Positions 11,643-61,687 of a stretch of DNA of 64,000 bases are shown piece by piece (the first letter of the stretch is position 1; the number at the start of each line of letters is the position of its first letter). The notes below the pieces were generated by a model. The model had not been told where the DNA came from. It was given only the letters and a program-made list of their open reading frames with translations, and searched no databases. Source of the stretch: Candidatus Bacteroides merdigallinarum (lineage in GTDB: Bacteria; Bacteroidota; Bacteroidia; Bacteroidales; Bacteroidaceae); the NCBI GenBank assembly GCA_019116285.1, contig DXBX01000026.1:1-64000 (forward strand), read 5' to 3'. The position numbers and the translations under genes were made by a program.

Positions 11643-11682
11643 TATTGCTTGAATCGTTTTTTGTACGGATTTTTATTTTGGT

Positions 11683-11819
11683 GTCGTTTAAATACCCTAT
11701 TTAAACGTCATTTAAATACCCTATTTAAACGTCGTTTAAATGACTATTTAACGGTCCGTTAAACGGGTATTTAATCGTCCGTTAAACGGGTATTTAACGG
11801 TCTGCTGAATGAGTATGTC
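11683..11819. repeat. Array A: six tandem units, spacing 24,24,23,23,23 bp, AT-rich dyad (GTTTAAATA-cccT-ATTTAAAC type)
   Basis: gtc(c)-aligned unit starts at 11683, 11707, 11731, 11754, 11777, 11800. Confidence 0.9.
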
Positions 11820-11936
11820 TTCGTGGACGTAGTGGATAGTCAGACGCGGAAGCCGCGGATGGCACGAATCAGTTGCGTAGAAAATGAAAAGCCGCGCCCG
11901 CCGCCCTGTCCGCGTCTGTAGTCCTTATGCCCGGGG

Positions 11937-21163: not shown

Positions 21164-21346
21164 GCCCGGAGATTCCCGGGGATACATTGGCGGGTATCCC
21201 TGCTCGTGCTCGCGGGAGCCCCCGCTTGTGTTCGCGGGTATCCCCGCTCGTGTCCGTGTAAGCCTTGTCTTTCTCTCGCAAAGGCCCCGTCTTTCTCTCG
21301 CAAAGGTCATGCCTTTCTCTCGCGGAGGCTTGCACTTTGTCCGCAG
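21164..21346. repeat. Array B: eight tandem 22-bp units in the divergent rlmH / DUF4783 intergenic region
   Basis: Aligned positions 21168, 21190, 21212, 21234, 21256, 21278, 21300, 21322; two subtypes, ttcGCGGGtatCCCCGCtcgtg and tcgcAAAGGtcatgCCTTTctc. Confidence 0.92.
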
Positions 21347-26604: not shown

Positions 26605-26762
26605 AGAGATTAGTGGATGACAGTTGGCATAAAAAACGAGAAATTTCTCTCCGAAAAAGCGTAACTCTTGTCATTCATTTTGGATAAAGTAAATATTTGT
26701 TCCCATACATCGGCGTTTTTCATTAACTTATGCACACCTTTTATGCATCCTTTTCTGCGCCC

Positions 26763-26839
26763 TTTCCGAAAGAGACCAAAAAGAGACCAAAAAGAGAGGA
26801 GAAAGAGAGGAGAAACGAAGGGATAACGAATGGACGACA
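26763..26839. repeat. Array G: seven 11-bp direct units (gaccaaaaaga x2, gaggagaaaga/gaggagaaacg, and related)
   Basis: Units at 26763, 26774, 26785, 26796, 26807, 26818, 26829. Confidence 0.85.
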
Positions 26840-27032
26840 GATAAGAATTAAATTCTTTACATGAAATAATATATATCATTGAATATTATTATTTTGCGAG
26901 ATTTGTCATCTGATATTTTTTTGTCATAATACACCCACTTAAGAGATGGTTTTCTCCTAAATGTCTTCGTTTGTTATGTTAATTTAATTATTAATATAGA
27001 ATGGTATTTGTAAAAAAGTATGCTATATAAGA

Positions 27033-32272: not shown

Positions 32273-32305
32273 GGGGGCAGTCAGGCCTATGCGTGTTTCC
32301 CGGTC

Positions 32306-32442
32306 TTTCCCAATGACTGGGAAGATACTTTCCCAACGGCTGGGAAAATGCTTTCCCAACGGCTGGGAAAATGCTTTCCCAACAGCAGGGAAATGGTTTT
32401 CCCAGCTAATGGGAAAAGCCGGTCCCGTATAGGGGAAGATAT
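32306..32442. repeat. Array C: six tandem 23-bp units, TTTCCCA-N5-TGGGAAA-N4
   Basis: Unit starts 32306, 32329, 32352, 32375, 32398, 32421; arms conserved while loops vary. Confidence 0.95.
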
Positions 32443-38851: not shown

Positions 38852-38904
38852 AGAACAGGAAATGTTTGTATATCAATAATATAAAGCGTTGTATATCACC
38901 CGCC

Positions 38905-38992
38905 TGCTCGGGGATACCTCCGAGCGTGTTCGGCGGTATCCCCGCTCATGTTCGGCGGTATCCCCGCTCGTACTCGTCGGTATCCTCAAGTA
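38905..38992. repeat. Array D: four tandem 22-bp units (ttcGGCGGtatCCCCGCtcatg), same consensus as the GC subtype of array B
   Basis: Aligned positions 38913, 38935, 38957, 38979. Confidence 0.9.
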
Positions 38993-39022
38993 AACAGGCG
39001 GGATATAAAGATTGGTTAGGGA

Positions 39023-49734: not shown

Positions 49735-51240
49735 TTATTCCATCGGTCGAATCATACTTTCAATGAAGGTGATTTCTTCGTCTGTCAGGGCGTATTTCTC
49801 GTAGAGCATCTCATCGGTCCAAGGGTGGGAGAAGTCTTGGAGAGGGACGAGTTTAAATGTTCGAATTGAAACATCGGGAGAAACAATCGTTACTTGGCAT
49901 AATAGTCTAACGAATTTTGTTTTTATATAGGAAAAACAATTCCTTGCTTCTTCTTCTGTGTCAAATACATCTATAACAACATATGATTCTGTAACTACTG
50001 CATTAGGTTCTACTATGAAAGTTTGGGACATTCTTAAAACTTGTCCGTTATCTTCTTCTGGTACGGAAGTAGATCTTGATGTAACGACCTTCCATTTGTC
50101 TAAAGTATCTATATTTTTCGATATGTACTTTTGTGGAATATATCCAAATCCGGATTTGGATTTCTTGGTATACAGTTTGATTTCTCCATTGTCTTTAAAA
50201 TCCATGAAGTTCGTTCGTAGTCCGTATGGCTTTTGACTGAAAACCTTGGAGGATAACATCATTTCGTTAAGTGAAAGGACCTTCTTGACGATATTTCTTG
50301 TAAATGAGTCTCGTATGAAGAAGTCTAATCCAAATTCCAATTTAGGTCTTATGACTTCGGTGATATGCCTTTCATCATTATGATTGAATACTTTTACATT
50401 GTCGGATGAATAAGTGCTGTCCCAAAGAAAATAACATATACCGCCGCCATTTCTGATGCCAGGAAAACAATCTTGACTCTTCTTGTAGTCGTATATTACT
50501 CTCAGATGTTTGTCCTCCAGCATATTTTTTCTAAAATCATCCAGACCTCTTCCTCCACAATACCAACGGGAAGGAATAATCATGCATAAATAGGTAGGGT
50601 GTAGTTTTTTAGCTTGTTCTACAAATAAATTGTATATAGGTGTGGCACTGGTATTATTTCCTCCATCTTCCAGCTGATACGGCGGATTCCCAATAATCAC
50701 ATCAAACTTCATATTGAATATATTTTCCGGTTGGAGGGTATGAATGAACTGATAGGCATACGTTTCGCTACCCTCTTCGCGTTCGTACACCTCCTGGCTG
50801 GCGCCGCAGAAGCGGCAGCGTCCCCGTTCCCAGGTATGTTGTTGGGGCGTGTAGCGGATGTTTCCCTGTTCGTCGGCGAAGGCGGTGCAGACGGAGTAGC
50901 GTCCGTTGGCCCGCTTGCTGCAATAGAGGCTGCGGCGGGAGAGCAGGGAGGTCAGCTCCGTGATGGGCAGGCCGAAGAGTTGGCGGGTCATGATGTGGTT
51001 CACCCGTTCCTGCACGTCGGGGATTTGCGTGGCCAGGCCCACTATTAGCCGTCGGGCTATCTCGCGGAGGAAAACGCCCGTCTTGCACGCCGGGTCCAGG
51101 AAGGTGGCCTGCGGGTTGCTCCACAGGTCGGGAGGCAGGAGGTCCAGCATGCGGTTGGCCACGGCGGGCGGGGTGAAGACTTCGTCGTTGCTCAGGTTGG
51201 CCAGGCACGACAGGACGTCGGGGTTATAGCGGTTCTGCAT
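49735..51240 (-). CDS. Eco57I-type / N6-adenine DNA methyltransferase with variable C-terminal recognition region
   Basis: Motif I FLDPACKTGVFL, motif IV IIGNPPYQLEDGG, Cys-rich insert CRFCGAS. Confidence 0.87.
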   Translation of the reverse strand: MQNRYNPDVLSCLANLSNDEVFTPPAVANRMLDLLPPDLWSNPQATFLDPACKTGVFLREIARRLIVGLATQIPDVQERVNHIMTRQLFGLPITELTSLLSRRSLYCSKRANGRYSVCTAFADEQGNIRYTPQQHTWERGRCRFCGASQEVYEREEGSETYAYQFIHTLQPENIFNMKFDVIIGNPPYQLEDGGNNTSATPIYNLFVEQAKKLHPTYLCMIIPSRWYCGGRGLDDFRKNMLEDKHLRVIYDYKKSQDCFPGIRNGGGICYFLWDSTYSSDNVKVFNHNDERHITEVIRPKLEFGLDFFIRDSFTRNIVKKVLSLNEMMLSSKVFSQKPYGLRTNFMDFKDNGEIKLYTKKSKSGFGYIPQKYISKNIDTLDKWKVVTSRSTSVPEEDNGQVLRMSQTFIVEPNAVVTESYVVIDVFDTEEEARNCFSYIKTKFVRLLCQVTIVSPDVSIRTFKLVPLQDFSHPWTDEMLYEKYALTDEEITFIESMIRPME

Positions 51241-52475: not shown

Positions 52476-52507
52476 TAATCAATGAGATGTTAAATTCCTT
52501 GTGAGGC

Positions 52508-52585
52508 GGTTTCGCTATCTCTTCGTTTCACCTTCGCTTTTCCTTCGCTTTTCCTTTGCTTTTCCTTCGCTACAGGTCTCTTTGG
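52508..52585. repeat. Array H: seven 11-bp direct units (tccttcgcttt consensus)
   Basis: ggtttcgctat|ctcttcgtttc|accttcgcttt|tccttcgcttt|tcctttgcttt|tccttcgctac|aggtctctttg. Confidence 0.85.
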
Positions 52586-52747: not shown

Positions 52748-55700
52748 ATGGCAGAAGAAGAGGTCTTGAAGAAAAAAAGTCCGTGGTTGCGGGCGGCCTT
52801 GTGGGTGCTGCTCACGCCGGTAGCCTTGTTCGTGCTGCTCATGGTGCTGCTCTATGTGCCTCCGGTGCAGGATTTCATCCGTCGCCAGGCGGTGTCGATA
52901 GCGGGCGAGGCCACGGGTATGCAGTTTGCCGTGGAGCGGATAGACCTGCGTTTCCCGCTGGACCTGCTGGTGAGGGGCGTACGGGTGGTACAGCCGGCGG
53001 ACAGCGTGACCGCTGCACCGGACACCCTGCTGACCTTGGGCAACCTGAGCGTGCGTGTGCAGGCCTGGCCTTTGCTGCGGGGACAGGTGGAAGTGGACGG
53101 CGTGTCGCTGGAAGACGTGTCGGTCAATTCGGCCGGCCTGTTGGAGGGGATACGGCTGGAAGGCACCTTGGGACGCTTCTTTCTTCGCAGTCATGGAGTG
53201 GACCTGAACCGCGAAAGCGTGATCCTGAATGAAGTGACATTGGAGGATACGCATCTGCGGATGGCCTTGGCCGATACCACCGCGTCGCCGCCGGACACGA
53301 CTTCTACGCCTGTCCGCTGGAAGGTGTTGCTTCACGCTTTGCGGTTGAAAAATGTTTCCGTGGACCTGCAGATGCCGTTGGATTCCCTGCATCTGTCCGC
53401 CCGTTTGGGGGAGGCCCGCATGAATGAAGCCGAGGCCGACCTGGGGCGTCAGGCATACGGCTGGCAGAAGTTCCTGCTGACCGGCACCAGCCTGGACTAT
53501 GACACCGGCACGCCGCGGGACACCACCGTGACGGCCGCCGGGCTCGACCCCTCGCACCTGTCTGTGCGTGATGTGCGGATAGGCATTGATTCTGTCCGTT
53601 ACGTAGGGCGGGAGATGAATGCCGTTATCCGTGAGTTTTCCCTGAACGAACGTTCCGGCCTCCGTATCGCCTCATTGACGGGGCGTCTGACGGCCGACTC
53701 CACCTTGATACGTGTCCCCTTCCTGCAACTGACCACCCCGCACAGCCAGATTGATTTGGCCGCACAGACTTATTGGGAACTCATCAATATCCCCACTACG
53801 GGTCGTCTGTCCGCCCGTCTGGATGCCCGTATCGGCAAGCAGGACGTGCTGTTGCTGGCCGGTGGCCTGCCGGAGAGTTTCAAGAAGTCTTATCCGTTCC
53901 ATCCGCTGGTAATCCGTGCCGGCACGGAGGGCAATCTGAAACAGATGCAGATCAGCCGCTTTGCCGTGGACCTGCCCGGAGCGTTCTCGCTCAGCGGCGG
54001 GGGTGAATTCTGGAACCTGACGGACAGCCTGTCGCGCAGCGGCAATCTGGACCTGGAGATGCAGACGCGCGACCTGAACTTCCTGACCGCTCTGGGCGGA
54101 CTGATGCCAGACAGCTCCTTGGTCATTCCGGACAGCATGCAGCTGGGTGCCCGTCTGGCCGTGGAGGGTAATGCTTGCACGGCTTCGCTGGACTTGCAGG
54201 AGCATGAAGGCTCCCTGGACCTGGCGGCTGCCTACGACCTGGGCAACGGGCGTTACCAGTTGGAACTGGCTGCCGATTCGCTTCAGATTCATCACTTCCT
54301 GCCCAAGGATTCCCTATATGCCTTGTCGGCCCGGCTGAGGGCTCAGGGGCAGGGCTTTGACCTGGCTTCGGCCCGCACCTCCGCGCAAGTGGACTTGGCT
54401 TTGGGAAGCCTGCAATACGGTCGTCTCAGCCTGACGGATGTCGATTTGCGGGCGGCGTTGCAGGCATCGGTCGCTTCGGTGCGGCTGCACAGCGACAATG
54501 CCCTGCTTCGGATGAAGATGGACGCCGACCTCCGCCTGGACCGCAACTATATGGACGGCAAACTGAATCTGAACGTGCAGGATGTCGACTTGCATCGCTT
54601 GGGGCTGGTTTCCCAAAAACCGGAGCATCCCCTGGCTTTCGACCTGGCCGCCGAAGCACGCCGTGACTCCATCAAGTTGCACCTGGGCTCCGGCGATTTG
54701 GATTTTGATTTCAAGGCCCGCAGTACGTTGAAGACGTTGCTGGAAAAATCTGATGCCTTCATGGCCCTTCTGATGCAGCAGTGGGAAGACCGTCGCCTGG
54801 ACCATGCGGCGTTGCGCCGTATCCTGCCATCGGCGGGCATGCAGCTGACGGCGGGGCACGACAATCCCGCGGGTGACTTGCTGGCTGCGCAGGGAATGGC
54901 CTTCGACCGCCTGAAAGTTCAGTTTGGTTTCACGCCGGAGTGGGGCATCAACGGACGGGCCTCCGTGGAGGGGTTCCGGACCGATTCCCTGCGGCTGGAC
55001 ACGCTCTTCTTTGCCGTCCATCAGGATACGACCCGGATGCAGTTGCAGGGAGGGGTCATTAATGGTCCCCGCAATCCGCACTTTACTTTCCGCAGTCTCC
55101 TGACGGGCGAAATACGCAACGAGGATGCCGAACTGACCGTGAACTATACCGATGCCGAGGGGAATACCGGTATCCTGCTGGGAGTCAATGCCCGTCCCCT
55201 GACCGAGGGACACGGACGGGGTAACGGCGTGCTGTTGCGCCTGACGCCCGACGAGCCGGTTATCGCATACCGCAAGTTCCGTTTTCAGGAGGGTCGGAAC
55301 AGCATCTATCTGCACAAGAACATGCGCGTCTATGCCAACATCGATATGGAGGGCGGCGACGGGATGGGGTTCCGGATGCAGTCCGATGTGGGTGACACGG
55401 TCTCCTTGCAGAACGTCAACGTGGAGCTGAGCCGTTTCCGCCTGAGCGAACTGAGCCGGGTATTGCCCTATTTGCCGCGGCTGACCGGCCTCTTCACCAT
55501 CGAGGCCAATTACATACAGACACCCGAAGCCCTGCAGTTGGCCGCCGAGGCAGATATTGATTCGCTGACCTATGAGGGGCGTCCGGTGGGCGACCTGGGA
55601 GCAGGTGTCACCTGGTTGCCTGCCTCGGACCAAAGCCATTACCTCAGTGCCTACGTGGCCTGCGATGACCGGCAGGTGATGACGGTAGATGGCCTGTTGG

Positions 55701-57355
55701 GCACGGAAACCGATAAGGACGCTCTCTCGTTGGATGCCTCGCTGGAGCGGCTGCCACTGTCCGTGGCCAATGCCTTTGTGCCGGACGGAATGGCTTCTTT
55801 GTCCGGTCATCTGAATGGGGCCGTCTCTCTGCGGGGGACGACGGCGAGACCCGACCTCCGGGGCAGTCTGCAGATGGATACGGCCTCTGTATTCATCCGG
55901 CAGTTGGGGGCACGCTACTATTTCGACGGACGGCCTGTGCGCATCGCCGACAACCGGCTGACGTTTGACAAGTTCTCCCTCTACACAACCAGCCGTAATC
56001 CGTTCGTCATCGACGGTTCGGTCAGCTTTGCCGATCCGGCTCGTCCGTCGGCCGACTTGACCTTGCAGGCCGTCAATTATAATCTGCTGGACGCTCCCCA
56101 TACTCGCGAAAGCCTGGTCTATGGTAAGGTGTTCGTGGATATCAACGCGGCTGTGCGCGGGCCGTTGGATGCCCTGACGATGCGTGGCAACATGAATCTG
56201 CTGGGCAATACCAACGTGACCTATGTCCTGACGGACTCTCCCTTGACGGTGGAGGACCGTCTGAGCGGCCTGGTCACCTTTACCTCCTTTGCCGACAGCG
56301 TGGCGACGGATACGCTGCAAGTAGCTGCCGTCCCCTTGGGCGGGATGGAAATCTACATGTCCCTGCACATCGATGAGGCCGTGCGCTTGCGGGCTGATTT
56401 GACCCCGGCAGGTGATAAATACATCGAACTGGAGGGAGGCGGCGACCTCAACTTGCAATATACGGCCCAAGGGGATATGAGCCTGACGGGACGTTATACC
56501 TTGTCCGGAGGCGTGATGAAATATTCCTTGCCCGTCATTCCCCTGAAGGAGTTCCGTTTCAATACAGGCAGCTACGTGGATTGGCGCGGCGACCTGCTGA
56601 ATCCCACCCTCGACCTGAAGGCGACGGAGCGGATGCGTGCCTCTGTGGCCGACGGAGAGGGAGAAGCCTCGCGCATCGTCAACTTCGACGTCAGCATCGG
56701 CATTACGGGTCGGCTGGAGTCGCCCGACCTCATCTTCGACATCGCAGCGCCTGAGGATGCTACCGTGCAGAACGAGTTGCAGGCCATGGGAGCCGAAGAA
56801 CGCAGTAAGCAGGCCATCGCCATGCTGGCCACGGGCATTTACCTGAACAGTGGTGCCAAGGGGGGAGGCTTGTCCATGGGCACGGCTCTGAACAGTGTCC
56901 TCCAAAGCCAGATTAACGCCTTGGCCGGATCGGCCGTGAAGAATGCCAGTATCAGTGTGGGTGTGGAAGACCGCACGTCCGCCGAGACGGGCAGTACGCA
57001 GACCGACTATAGCTTCCGCTACTCGCAACGGTTCTTCAACGACCGCTTCCAGGTAGTCATCGGCGGCAAGGTGTCTACCGGTGCCAATGCCACCAATTCC
57101 GCCGAATCCTTCATCGACAACATCTCGCTGGAGTATCGGCTGGACAATTCGGGCACGCGCTATATCCGGGTGTTCCATAATAAGAACTACGAAAGCGTGC
57201 TGGACGGAGAGATTACGGAAACGGGCGTCGGCCTCGTGCTGCGCCGCAAACTGGACCGTCTGGGCGAACTGTTCATCTTCCGTAAGAAGAAGCCGCGGAG
57301 CGTCGGGGAGGAGAAGAAGTCCGCCTCGGAGGAGCCTGAATCTTCACCAAGGTGA
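52748..57355 (+). CDS. tamB: Translocation and assembly module TamB-like protein (DUF490)
   Basis: 1535 aa, N-terminal TM, AsmA/TamB-like N-terminus, C-terminal PDLIFDIAAPEDATVQNELQAMG...DRFQVVIGGKVSTG. Confidence 0.9.
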   Translation: MAEEEVLKKKSPWLRAALWVLLTPVALFVLLMVLLYVPPVQDFIRRQAVSIAGEATGMQFAVERIDLRFPLDLLVRGVRVVQPADSVTAAPDTLLTLGNLSVRVQAWPLLRGQVEVDGVSLEDVSVNSAGLLEGIRLEGTLGRFFLRSHGVDLNRESVILNEVTLEDTHLRMALADTTASPPDTTSTPVRWKVLLHALRLKNVSVDLQMPLDSLHLSARLGEARMNEAEADLGRQAYGWQKFLLTGTSLDYDTGTPRDTTVTAAGLDPSHLSVRDVRIGIDSVRYVGREMNAVIREFSLNERSGLRIASLTGRLTADSTLIRVPFLQLTTPHSQIDLAAQTYWELINIPTTGRLSARLDARIGKQDVLLLAGGLPESFKKSYPFHPLVIRAGTEGNLKQMQISRFAVDLPGAFSLSGGGEFWNLTDSLSRSGNLDLEMQTRDLNFLTALGGLMPDSSLVIPDSMQLGARLAVEGNACTASLDLQEHEGSLDLAAAYDLGNGRYQLELAADSLQIHHFLPKDSLYALSARLRAQGQGFDLASARTSAQVDLALGSLQYGRLSLTDVDLRAALQASVASVRLHSDNALLRMKMDADLRLDRNYMDGKLNLNVQDVDLHRLGLVSQKPEHPLAFDLAAEARRDSIKLHLGSGDLDFDFKARSTLKTLLEKSDAFMALLMQQWEDRRLDHAALRRILPSAGMQLTAGHDNPAGDLLAAQGMAFDRLKVQFGFTPEWGINGRASVEGFRTDSLRLDTLFFAVHQDTTRMQLQGGVINGPRNPHFTFRSLLTGEIRNEDAELTVNYTDAEGNTGILLGVNARPLTEGHGRGNGVLLRLTPDEPVIAYRKFRFQEGRNSIYLHKNMRVYANIDMEGGDGMGFRMQSDVGDTVSLQNVNVELSRFRLSELSRVLPYLPRLTGLFTIEANYIQTPEALQLAAEADIDSLTYEGRPVGDLGAGVTWLPASDQSHYLSAYVACDDRQVMTVDGLLGTETDKDALSLDASLERLPLSVANAFVPDGMASLSGHLNGAVSLRGTTARPDLRGSLQMDTASVFIRQLGARYYFDGRPVRIADNRLTFDKFSLYTTSRNPFVIDGSVSFADPARPSADLTLQAVNYNLLDAPHTRESLVYGKVFVDINAAVRGPLDALTMRGNMNLLGNTNVTYVLTDSPLTVEDRLSGLVTFTSFADSVATDTLQVAAVPLGGMEIYMSLHIDEAVRLRADLTPAGDKYIELEGGGDLNLQYTAQGDMSLTGRYTLSGGVMKYSLPVIPLKEFRFNTGSYVDWRGDLLNPTLDLKATERMRASVADGEGEASRIVNFDVSIGITGRLESPDLIFDIAAPEDATVQNELQAMGAEERSKQAIAMLATGIYLNSGAKGGGLSMGTALNSVLQSQINALAGSAVKNASISVGVEDRTSAETGSTQTDYSFRYSQRFFNDRFQVVIGGKVSTGANATNSAESFIDNISLEYRLDNSGTRYIRVFHNKNYESVLDGEITETGVGLVLRRKLDRLGELFIFRKKKPRSVGEEKKSASEEPESSPR

Positions 57356-57591
57356 CGGCGAGATCAAGACCAAGGTGACGATGAGATCGAGACCAAGGTG
57401 ACGATGAGGTCGAGACCAAGGTGACGGTGAGGTCGAGACCAAGGCGACGGTGAGGACAAGACCTCGGTGAGGCTGAAACCTTCGCTATAGTGAACCCGGA
57501 TTCGTCACCCTAGTGACGGTGCTGTCGTCACAGTAGTGACGATGCTGTCACCACAGTAGTGACGGTGCAGTCGTCACAGTAGTGAATCCGG
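57341..57591. repeat. Array E: eleven tandem 23-bp units (tcacc/gaccAAGGTGAc, gtcacagtaGTGAC subtypes)
   Basis: Aligned centres 57349, 57372, 57395, 57418, 57441, 57464, 57487, 57510, 57533, 57556, 57579, all 23 bp apart. Confidence 0.96.
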
Positions 57592-57644
57592 CGTCCTTAC
57601 CAGGTTGCTTTATAAGTTATTGATAATAAGGAATATATAAGTAT

Positions 57645-61058: not shown

Positions 61059-61109
61059 ATGCGGACTTGCAGAAGGATGGGCGGATGTCTACCCCTGCAA
61101 AGTCCGCAT
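61059..61109. terminator. Hairpin ATGCGGACTTGCAG ... CTGCAAAGTCCGCAT (terminator-like)
   Basis: 14-15 bp arms with a one-nt bulge, between convergent genes; weak T-run. Confidence 0.5.
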
Positions 61110-61111
61110 AT

Positions 61112-61197
61112 TTGCGATAGGGCTATCGCACGGCATCGATAGAGCTATCGTTAGGCGATGATAGAGCTATCGTTAGGCGATGATAGGGCTTTCATCT
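61112..61197. repeat. Array F: four tandem 22-bp units, CGATAG-rg-CTATCG dyad
   Basis: GATAG at 61116, 61138, 61160, 61182. Confidence 0.93.
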
Positions 61198-61687
61198 CTT
61201 CTCCGTCCTTATCATACTGCTTGCGCTTTCCCGTTGGGGCAGATGTCAGTGTGATACGGACCACGGAGGTGCGGTGCAGGCTTCGGCGGATGGCATCCTC
61301 GAAGGCATCCATGTGTTGGGGCAGGAAGCGCTCGCTGATGGCATGGAGAGCCGTTATTTTTTCTTGTTCGTCCGTGACCAACTCTGCTCGGCCAAAAGCG
61401 ATGGCCGAACGGTACTGGAGAGTGAACGAACCATCCTTGGGGCCTATGGTCGGTGTGCATCGGGTAACGGCTGAAAGGCAGACTTCCGGGTGTACGGCTA
61501 TGGCATCGAGTTTGTCACCCTCCGGGGCACAATGGAAGTACCAGTCCTTGTCATTGGTAGAGGCAAGGGACAAGGGTACACCATACGAAGTGCCGTCCGG
61601 CCGCGTGAAACTGACCGTGATGTATGGCGCTTTATGCATGATTTCCAAGGCCCATTCGGAGGGCATTTCTCTGCTTGTTTTTCTCAT
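61151..61687 (-). CDS. Pyridoxamine 5'-phosphate oxidase family (FMN-binding split barrel) protein
   Basis: EWALEIMHKAPYITVSFTRPDGTSYGVPLSLA, WYFHCAPEGDKLDAIAVHPEVCLSAV. Confidence 0.88.
   Translation of the reverse strand: MRKTSREMPSEWALEIMHKAPYITVSFTRPDGTSYGVPLSLASTNDKDWYFHCAPEGDKLDAIAVHPEVCLSAVTRCTPTIGPKDGSFTLQYRSAIAFGRAELVTDEQEKITALHAISERFLPQHMDAFEDAIRRSLHRTSVVRITLTSAPTGKRKQYDKDGEEMKALSSPNDSSIIA

Follow-up and report, generated by a model that had tools for sequence, protein, structure and literature searches.

The window analysed here, a 64,000-nucleotide stretch of Candidatus Bacteroides merdigallinarum, contains a tamB-like gene followed by an Omp85 gene, and the gap between them is largely occupied by a row of short palindromic repeats, array E, in which tamB also ends. 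Does this array serve the gene pair, or is it one copy of a repeat that is dispersed through the genome? Below, loci and genomes used for comparison carry L and G numbers; G000 is the genome of the window.

Array E and the genes on either side

The junction consists of the following features, all on the plus strand:

52748–57355, plus strand: tamB-like gene, 1535 aa (Pfam TamB PF04357, 1e-41), last codons and TGA in unit 1 of the array
57346–57483, plus strand: array E subtype I, six 23-bp units, consensus ACCAAGGTGACGGTGAGGTCGAG; unit 6 degenerate; tamB stop codon in unit 1
57484–57598, plus strand: array E subtype II, five 23-bp units, consensus ACAGTAGTGACGGTGCTGTCGTC, dyad GTCAC-AGTA-GTGAC
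57599–57644, plus strand: non-repeat spacer of 46 bp from array E to the Omp85 start codon
57645–60020, plus strand: Omp85 gene (BamA/TamA-like, lipoprotein-type N terminus), 791 aa (PF01103, 2.3e-25)

The first-pass annotation had described eleven in-phase 23-bp units after tamB. These are present, with the span corrected to 57346–57598 (57598, not 57591, is the nearer end). Dyad centres fall at 57349.5 + 23n in all eleven units, from 57349.5 to 57579.5, in agreement with the 23-bp spacing of centres first reported, and the subtype change noticed midway does occur without loss of phase, both subtypes sharing one phase and one dyad centre. Unit 1 indeed supplies the end of TamB (GAA TCT TCA CCA AGG TGA, encoding ESSPR and the stop, with TGA at 57353–57355), and the array fills most of the gap, as had been stated: 243 of the 289 bp (84%) between tamB and the Omp85 gene. 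At lag 23, 172 of 230 positions are identical; the best of ∼ 29,000 simulated 253-mers reached 89. Tandem Repeats Finder splits the array into 57346–57470 and 57502–57585. Units 4 and 10 are identical at 15 of 23 positions; the subtypes are diverged forms of one unit. Units 6 and 7 form a degenerate junction. Two units of subtype II, 7 and 11, are of the end type (..GTGAAxCCGG), and since unit 7 resembles end unit 11 (15 of 23 positions alike), array E may be two sub-arrays, units 1–6 and 7–11, joined in phase. End units of the E family (L022, L011, L018) have TTCAC on the left and GTGAA on the right, versus GACC/GTGAC internally, as if these arrays bore marked ends. The sole other relative of array E found in the sampled part of the genome lies at L080:6896–7123 (G000 contig C90) and contains both E subtypes, one inverted with respect to the other. 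Upstream of tamB, an Eco57I-type restriction-modification methylase gene occupies 49735–51240 on the opposite strand.

The tamB–Omp85 junction in relatives

Twenty related loci from Bacteroides or Mediterranea, mostly metagenome assemblies and several of them chicken-named, were compared at this junction. The array is missing in most relatives, and the array-less gaps are mostly plain spacers of 1–76 bp (1–33 bp in many, 27 bp in B. fragilis), some being longer, e.g. 163 bp at L006 and L007. Because relatives space the co-directional pair this tightly, the two-gene operon postulated at the outset is likely. Where an array does occur, the families are unrelated and differ by lineage: L011 and L018 have shorter arrays of the same family as the window; at L003 a decayed start is followed by a GGACTAGTCC array; at L008, several palindrome subtypes share one phase in a long 23-bp array; and the 22-bp array at L012 is weak and differs again in sequence. 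An assembly artefact, which the first-pass annotation had named as a possible refutation, is ruled out, because three other assemblies (L003, L011, L018) have a related array at the same junction. In the CALNEX01 MAG (L002, L003), Omp85 occurs in two differing copies, of which one has an array and the other, like L001, has none; this MAG is probably a strain mixture.

Among the relatives compared, TamB ends in EPESSPR in the window, L011 and L018, is extended in L003 and has other tails elsewhere; array E rewrites this tail. Since array-less relatives have short gaps and no EPESSPR tail, array E is probably a gain of this lineage, arrays of other sequence having arisen at the same junction in other lineages.

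The first reading of this locus also suggested that the array differentially stabilizes or terminates the transcript, a proposal that relatives with plain non-repeat spacers would contradict. Close relatives do keep the gene pair with such spacers, and since these are plain and short in most relatives, array E is not needed for the pair. No terminator-like site (GC-rich stem plus U-run) was found in the array E region. The array is predicted to fold as RNA more stably than its shuffles (z = −3.25), and an incidental effect on the transcript is therefore possible. Across arrays of the kind described below, the sense strand was the more stable in only 27 of 57 cases, and there is no strand bias. 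Strand-neutral folding, the presence of arrays in divergent gaps, the lack of terminator-like sites and the dispensability of the array together argue against a purpose-built operon attenuator, and these sequence comparisons lend no support to a regulatory role dedicated to tamB. It is more likely that a dispersed repeat landed in the operon than that a switch was built for it.

Number, period and turnover of the arrays

In 0.998 Mb of G000, sampled in stretches (∼ 37% of the genome; gene calls from a simple in-house caller), we found 90 tandem arrays, 87 of them not inside coding sequence. Among primary periodic runs at lags 10–60, doubles excluded, 92 of 116 had periods of 21 (16 runs), 22 (52), 23 (17) or 24 bp (7), and all other lags together accounted for 24; the doubles comprised 49 runs at lags 42–48. 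The Markov-simulated genome sample and 100 kb of E. coli K-12 each gave 0 arrays. The 85 arrays that could be classified by gap type (57 tandem, 20 divergent, 8 convergent) are distributed roughly in proportion to intergenic length (58.5, 27.6 and 8.4 kb respectively), divergent gaps included. Their median distance is 29 bp from gene 3′ ends and 97 bp from 5′ ends. Elsewhere in the genus, 200 kb of B. fragilis Q1F2 contains three arrays, one each of period 21, 22 and 23, and other Bacteroides have 22-bp dyad arrays as well; the small samples of other Bacteroidales families gave at most one array each.

A lag-identity scan of the window itself (lags 12–60) showed that every tandem repeat has a period of 22–24 or its double. 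Besides array E, the window contains these arrays of the class:

11664–11826: 23/24-bp array of the same class, unit like CTATTTAACGGTCCGTTAAACGG
21185–21260: 22-bp array of family A (GCGGGTATCCCCGCTCGTGTTC)
21251–21342: adjoining 22-bp array, unit GTCTTTCTCTCGCAAAGGCCAC, dyad not significant
32295–32421: 23-bp array, CTTTCCCAACGGCTGGGAAAATG; the orthologous G015 site has a 23-bp array of different sequence
38896–38999: 22-bp array of family A
52502–52580: 22-bp array, CTTCGCTTCACCTTCGCTTTTC, same class by period, no dyad, upstream of tamB
61104–61207: 22-bp array, CGATAGAGCTATCG, plus spacer; its family has two more loci in the sample

A repeat similar to that at 52502–52580 lies upstream of tamB in L001 (2132–2208). 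An 11-bp tandem repeat at 26769–26808 (AAAGAGACCAA) has half the usual period, and the region around it (26708–26899) is 81% like the array region L069:2922–3006.

The 1 Mb contains 11 multi-member families and ∼ 30 singleton arrays. Family A (22 bp) accounts for 25 arrays per Mb, family B (21 bp) for 10 and the rest for fewer; 62 of the 90 arrays have a relative at another locus, mostly at 75–92% identity. Families are restricted to few close species (E in 3, B in 5 and A in 3 of 61 genomes). Family A comprises the two arrays at 21185–21260 and 38896–38999 of the window and 23 more in L024–L080, with G015 counterparts in L204–L214; its enrichment in divergent gaps is not significant (Fisher p = 0.09). 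In the single-contig Bacteroides genome G044 (L228–L237), ∼ 10 dispersed loci carry a 22-bp family of its own, GAAACTnTAGTTTC. Comparison of the flanks of all arrays with one another gave 16 matches, mostly from adjoining arrays, and no shared flanks for most families.

Turnover was followed in 37 orthologous gaps of G000 and G015, whose flanking genes are ∼ 89% identical. Arrays were present in both genomes at six gaps and in only one at five. In five of the six shared arrays, a small sample, there was no detectable sequence similarity, and yet position and period agreed (23 versus 22 in one case). At several family A sites, compared by eye, G000 has GGTACCGACGAGCACGAGCGTC where G015 consistently has a different but related unit, GGTACGGGTAAGCACGGGCGCA, which seems to reflect concerted replacement across loci. 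In family B, the third arm pair changes from T/A in G000 and G002 to C/G in G015 and G035, also at an orthologous locus.

Possible origins of the arrays

The arrays are dispersed in families, conserve their period, have dyad consensus sequences, are strand-neutral and turn over rapidly between close species. We therefore favour, at a probability of about 0.5, the reading that array E is one member of a Bacteroides class of tandem-palindrome repeats, dispersed and non-coding, and is carried as a BIME/MITE-like passenger. Such blocks, typically ∼ 4–6 units of 21–24 bp and mostly with a dyad, would be tolerated in gene-free DNA, often tight against a gene 3′ end. Copies would spread to new gaps and be homogenized across loci, perhaps by template switching or slippage at palindromes together with ectopic conversion, or by a mobilizer; the sequence itself would not be retained, but the spacing of about two helical turns and the self-complementary arms would. 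At tamB–Omp85, the array would have been gained in this lineage, have taken over the tamB stop codon and have stretched an operon spacer that is otherwise short; any change in Omp85 expression would be a side effect. Against this reading, slippage alone fails to explain the narrow 21–24 bp period, some arrays lack a dyad, the shared arrays at orthologous sites number only six, and family B (below) hints at selection on RNA. Spread by transposition is unproven, because no mobilizer was found in this 81% complete genome and most families have no shared flanks outside the arrays.

An unlikely alternative is that the arrays are platforms for dimeric or filament-forming DNA-binding proteins spaced at two helical turns, each family having its own protein, so that concerted symmetric changes would reflect shifted protein specificity. 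The constancy of the 21–24 bp period across unrelated sequences and species, the family-wide symmetric substitutions, the lack of strand preference and the arrays in divergent gaps are all consistent with it. So are the dyads, which 51 of 90 arrays show beyond a column-permutation null, some arrays having none. In-unit hairpin selection was considered for the whole class: arm covariation was in 9-fold excess by a naive measure and in 5–7-fold excess against a re-optimized column-permutation null, and arm mutations were compensated no more within a unit than with its neighbours. As this last control erased the excess, we do not claim such selection class-wide, and its outcome is as expected for a protein platform. 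The bias of G-T over A-C mismatches was weak (37 versus 27). However, we have no candidate protein, the ∼ 30 singletons and 11 multi-member families per 1 Mb would each require a reader, array presence varies among close relatives, and repeats spaced at 23 or 24 bp gradually leave a single face of the helix.

The arrays could instead act as rows of RNA hairpins in 3′ UTRs and intergenic transcripts, stabilizing the upstream mRNA, stopping transcription or being processed, with array E setting the tamB:Omp85 ratio. We consider this quite unlikely, even though array E folds better than its shuffles and arrays cluster at gene 3′ ends. Evidence for it also comes from family B, a defined element whose four hairpins are 21 nt each. 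This genome has ∼ 30 copies of it, and its loci include the following:

L056:14147–14250: family B
L184–L193: family B
L164–L177: family B
L244:5728–5831: family B

Exactly four units are present in 32 of 38 copies, with inverted blocks rich in A and in T on either side, at 21–22 bp. Of the stem cells, 95% pair on one strand (G-U counted), with 18 compensatory cells versus 5.0 in shuffled controls, and the pairing strand is the sense strand in 12 of 15 tandem contexts. With a covariance model of the element (R1), full-length copies were recovered from 15 of 61 Bacteroides genomes and one, with different arms, from B. fragilis. Family B looks structured, with an intrinsic strand, which hints at RNA-level selection, at least for this family. 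Its compensatory changes, on the other hand, fall mostly at one pair, in few lineages and few independent events, and 16 of 37 copies lie between divergent genes, as do 20 of the 85 classified arrays. The absence of a sense-strand advantage, of in-unit compensation beyond neighbours and of a terminator-like site at array E also weighs against RNA function. Searches of Rfam gave no match above the gathering threshold, only sub-threshold hits to microRNA precursors and other chance matches to self-complementary repeats.

Two described kinds of element come nearest to the class, and each lacks at least one of the defining features tested. REP/BIME elements of Proteobacteria are intergenic, regularly spaced palindromes dispersed in hundreds, with species-specific families and RAYT transposases; they form hybrid clusters, and their palindromes are preserved while the sequence changes, much as here (PMC2817692). 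Their figure of > 100 extragenic, regularly spaced copies per genome is also matched (90 arrays per Mb sampled, 87 of 90 non-coding). The Bacteroides arrays differ in running head-to-tail at 21–24 bp, in belonging to an unrelated phylum and in having no GTAG-type 5′ signature in E, A or B units; GTAG-N-CTAC occurs at chance level in the window and not at all in array E. No cognate RAYT (Y1) transposase (PF01797) was found in G000, although control genomes were positive; at 81% completeness of G000 this absence is not final.

The second is BrickBuilt, a MITE minisatellite of Porphyromonas gingivalis with tandem 23-nt imperfect repeats (1–22.8 units) at 19 dispersed intergenic loci, which forms predicted stem-loops and is a single, species-specific family that has a leader and a tail as well as IS-like terminal inverted repeats (PMC4596501). 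The host order Bacteroidales, the tandem ∼ 23-nt units, the predicted stem-loops and the several dispersed intergenic loci recur here, and the arrays might accordingly be one such transposon-derived element with an internal 23-bp minisatellite. This is very doubtful and already weakened: most family arrays have no common leader, tail or terminal inverted repeats, a genome contains many families and not a single one, at ∼ 90 arrays per Mb and a period of 21–24, and arrays at the same site differ in sequence between close species. Even in family B the inverted A/T-rich flanks are degenerate and the ends are not conserved; a clean empty site sought at L164/L030 was not found, the flanks differing too much.

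Ordinary neutral minisatellites, arising by local slippage and sharing no class, would likewise have head-to-tail units whose copy number and sequence differ among relatives, but this is hardly credible given a narrow period locked at 21–24 bp across unrelated units, the dispersed families, the dyads and a four-hairpin element found across the genus, with none in the E. coli sample.

The class appears to be undescribed: in open-licence papers, our literature search found no description of it for Bacteroides, which is not proof of absence. We tentatively suggest, at somewhat less than even odds, that tandem hairpins or palindromes locked to a period of 21–24 bp form a genus-wide class. Its dispersed loci would change sequence in concert yet retain their spacing and symmetry, which would imply a trans-acting reader or mobilizer dedicated to them; the best-defined form of the class would be family B, from chicken-gut species to B. 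fragilis. If the class holds, a sizeable share of the non-coding DNA in a major gut genus would be one kind of element, missed by standard annotation, Rfam and repeat libraries. Retention of spacing and symmetry while sequence is swapped genome-wide would offer a testable case for a trans-acting protein or mobilizer. Arrays in operon gaps and stop codons, such as array E, call for caution before they are read as gene-specific regulation without testing.
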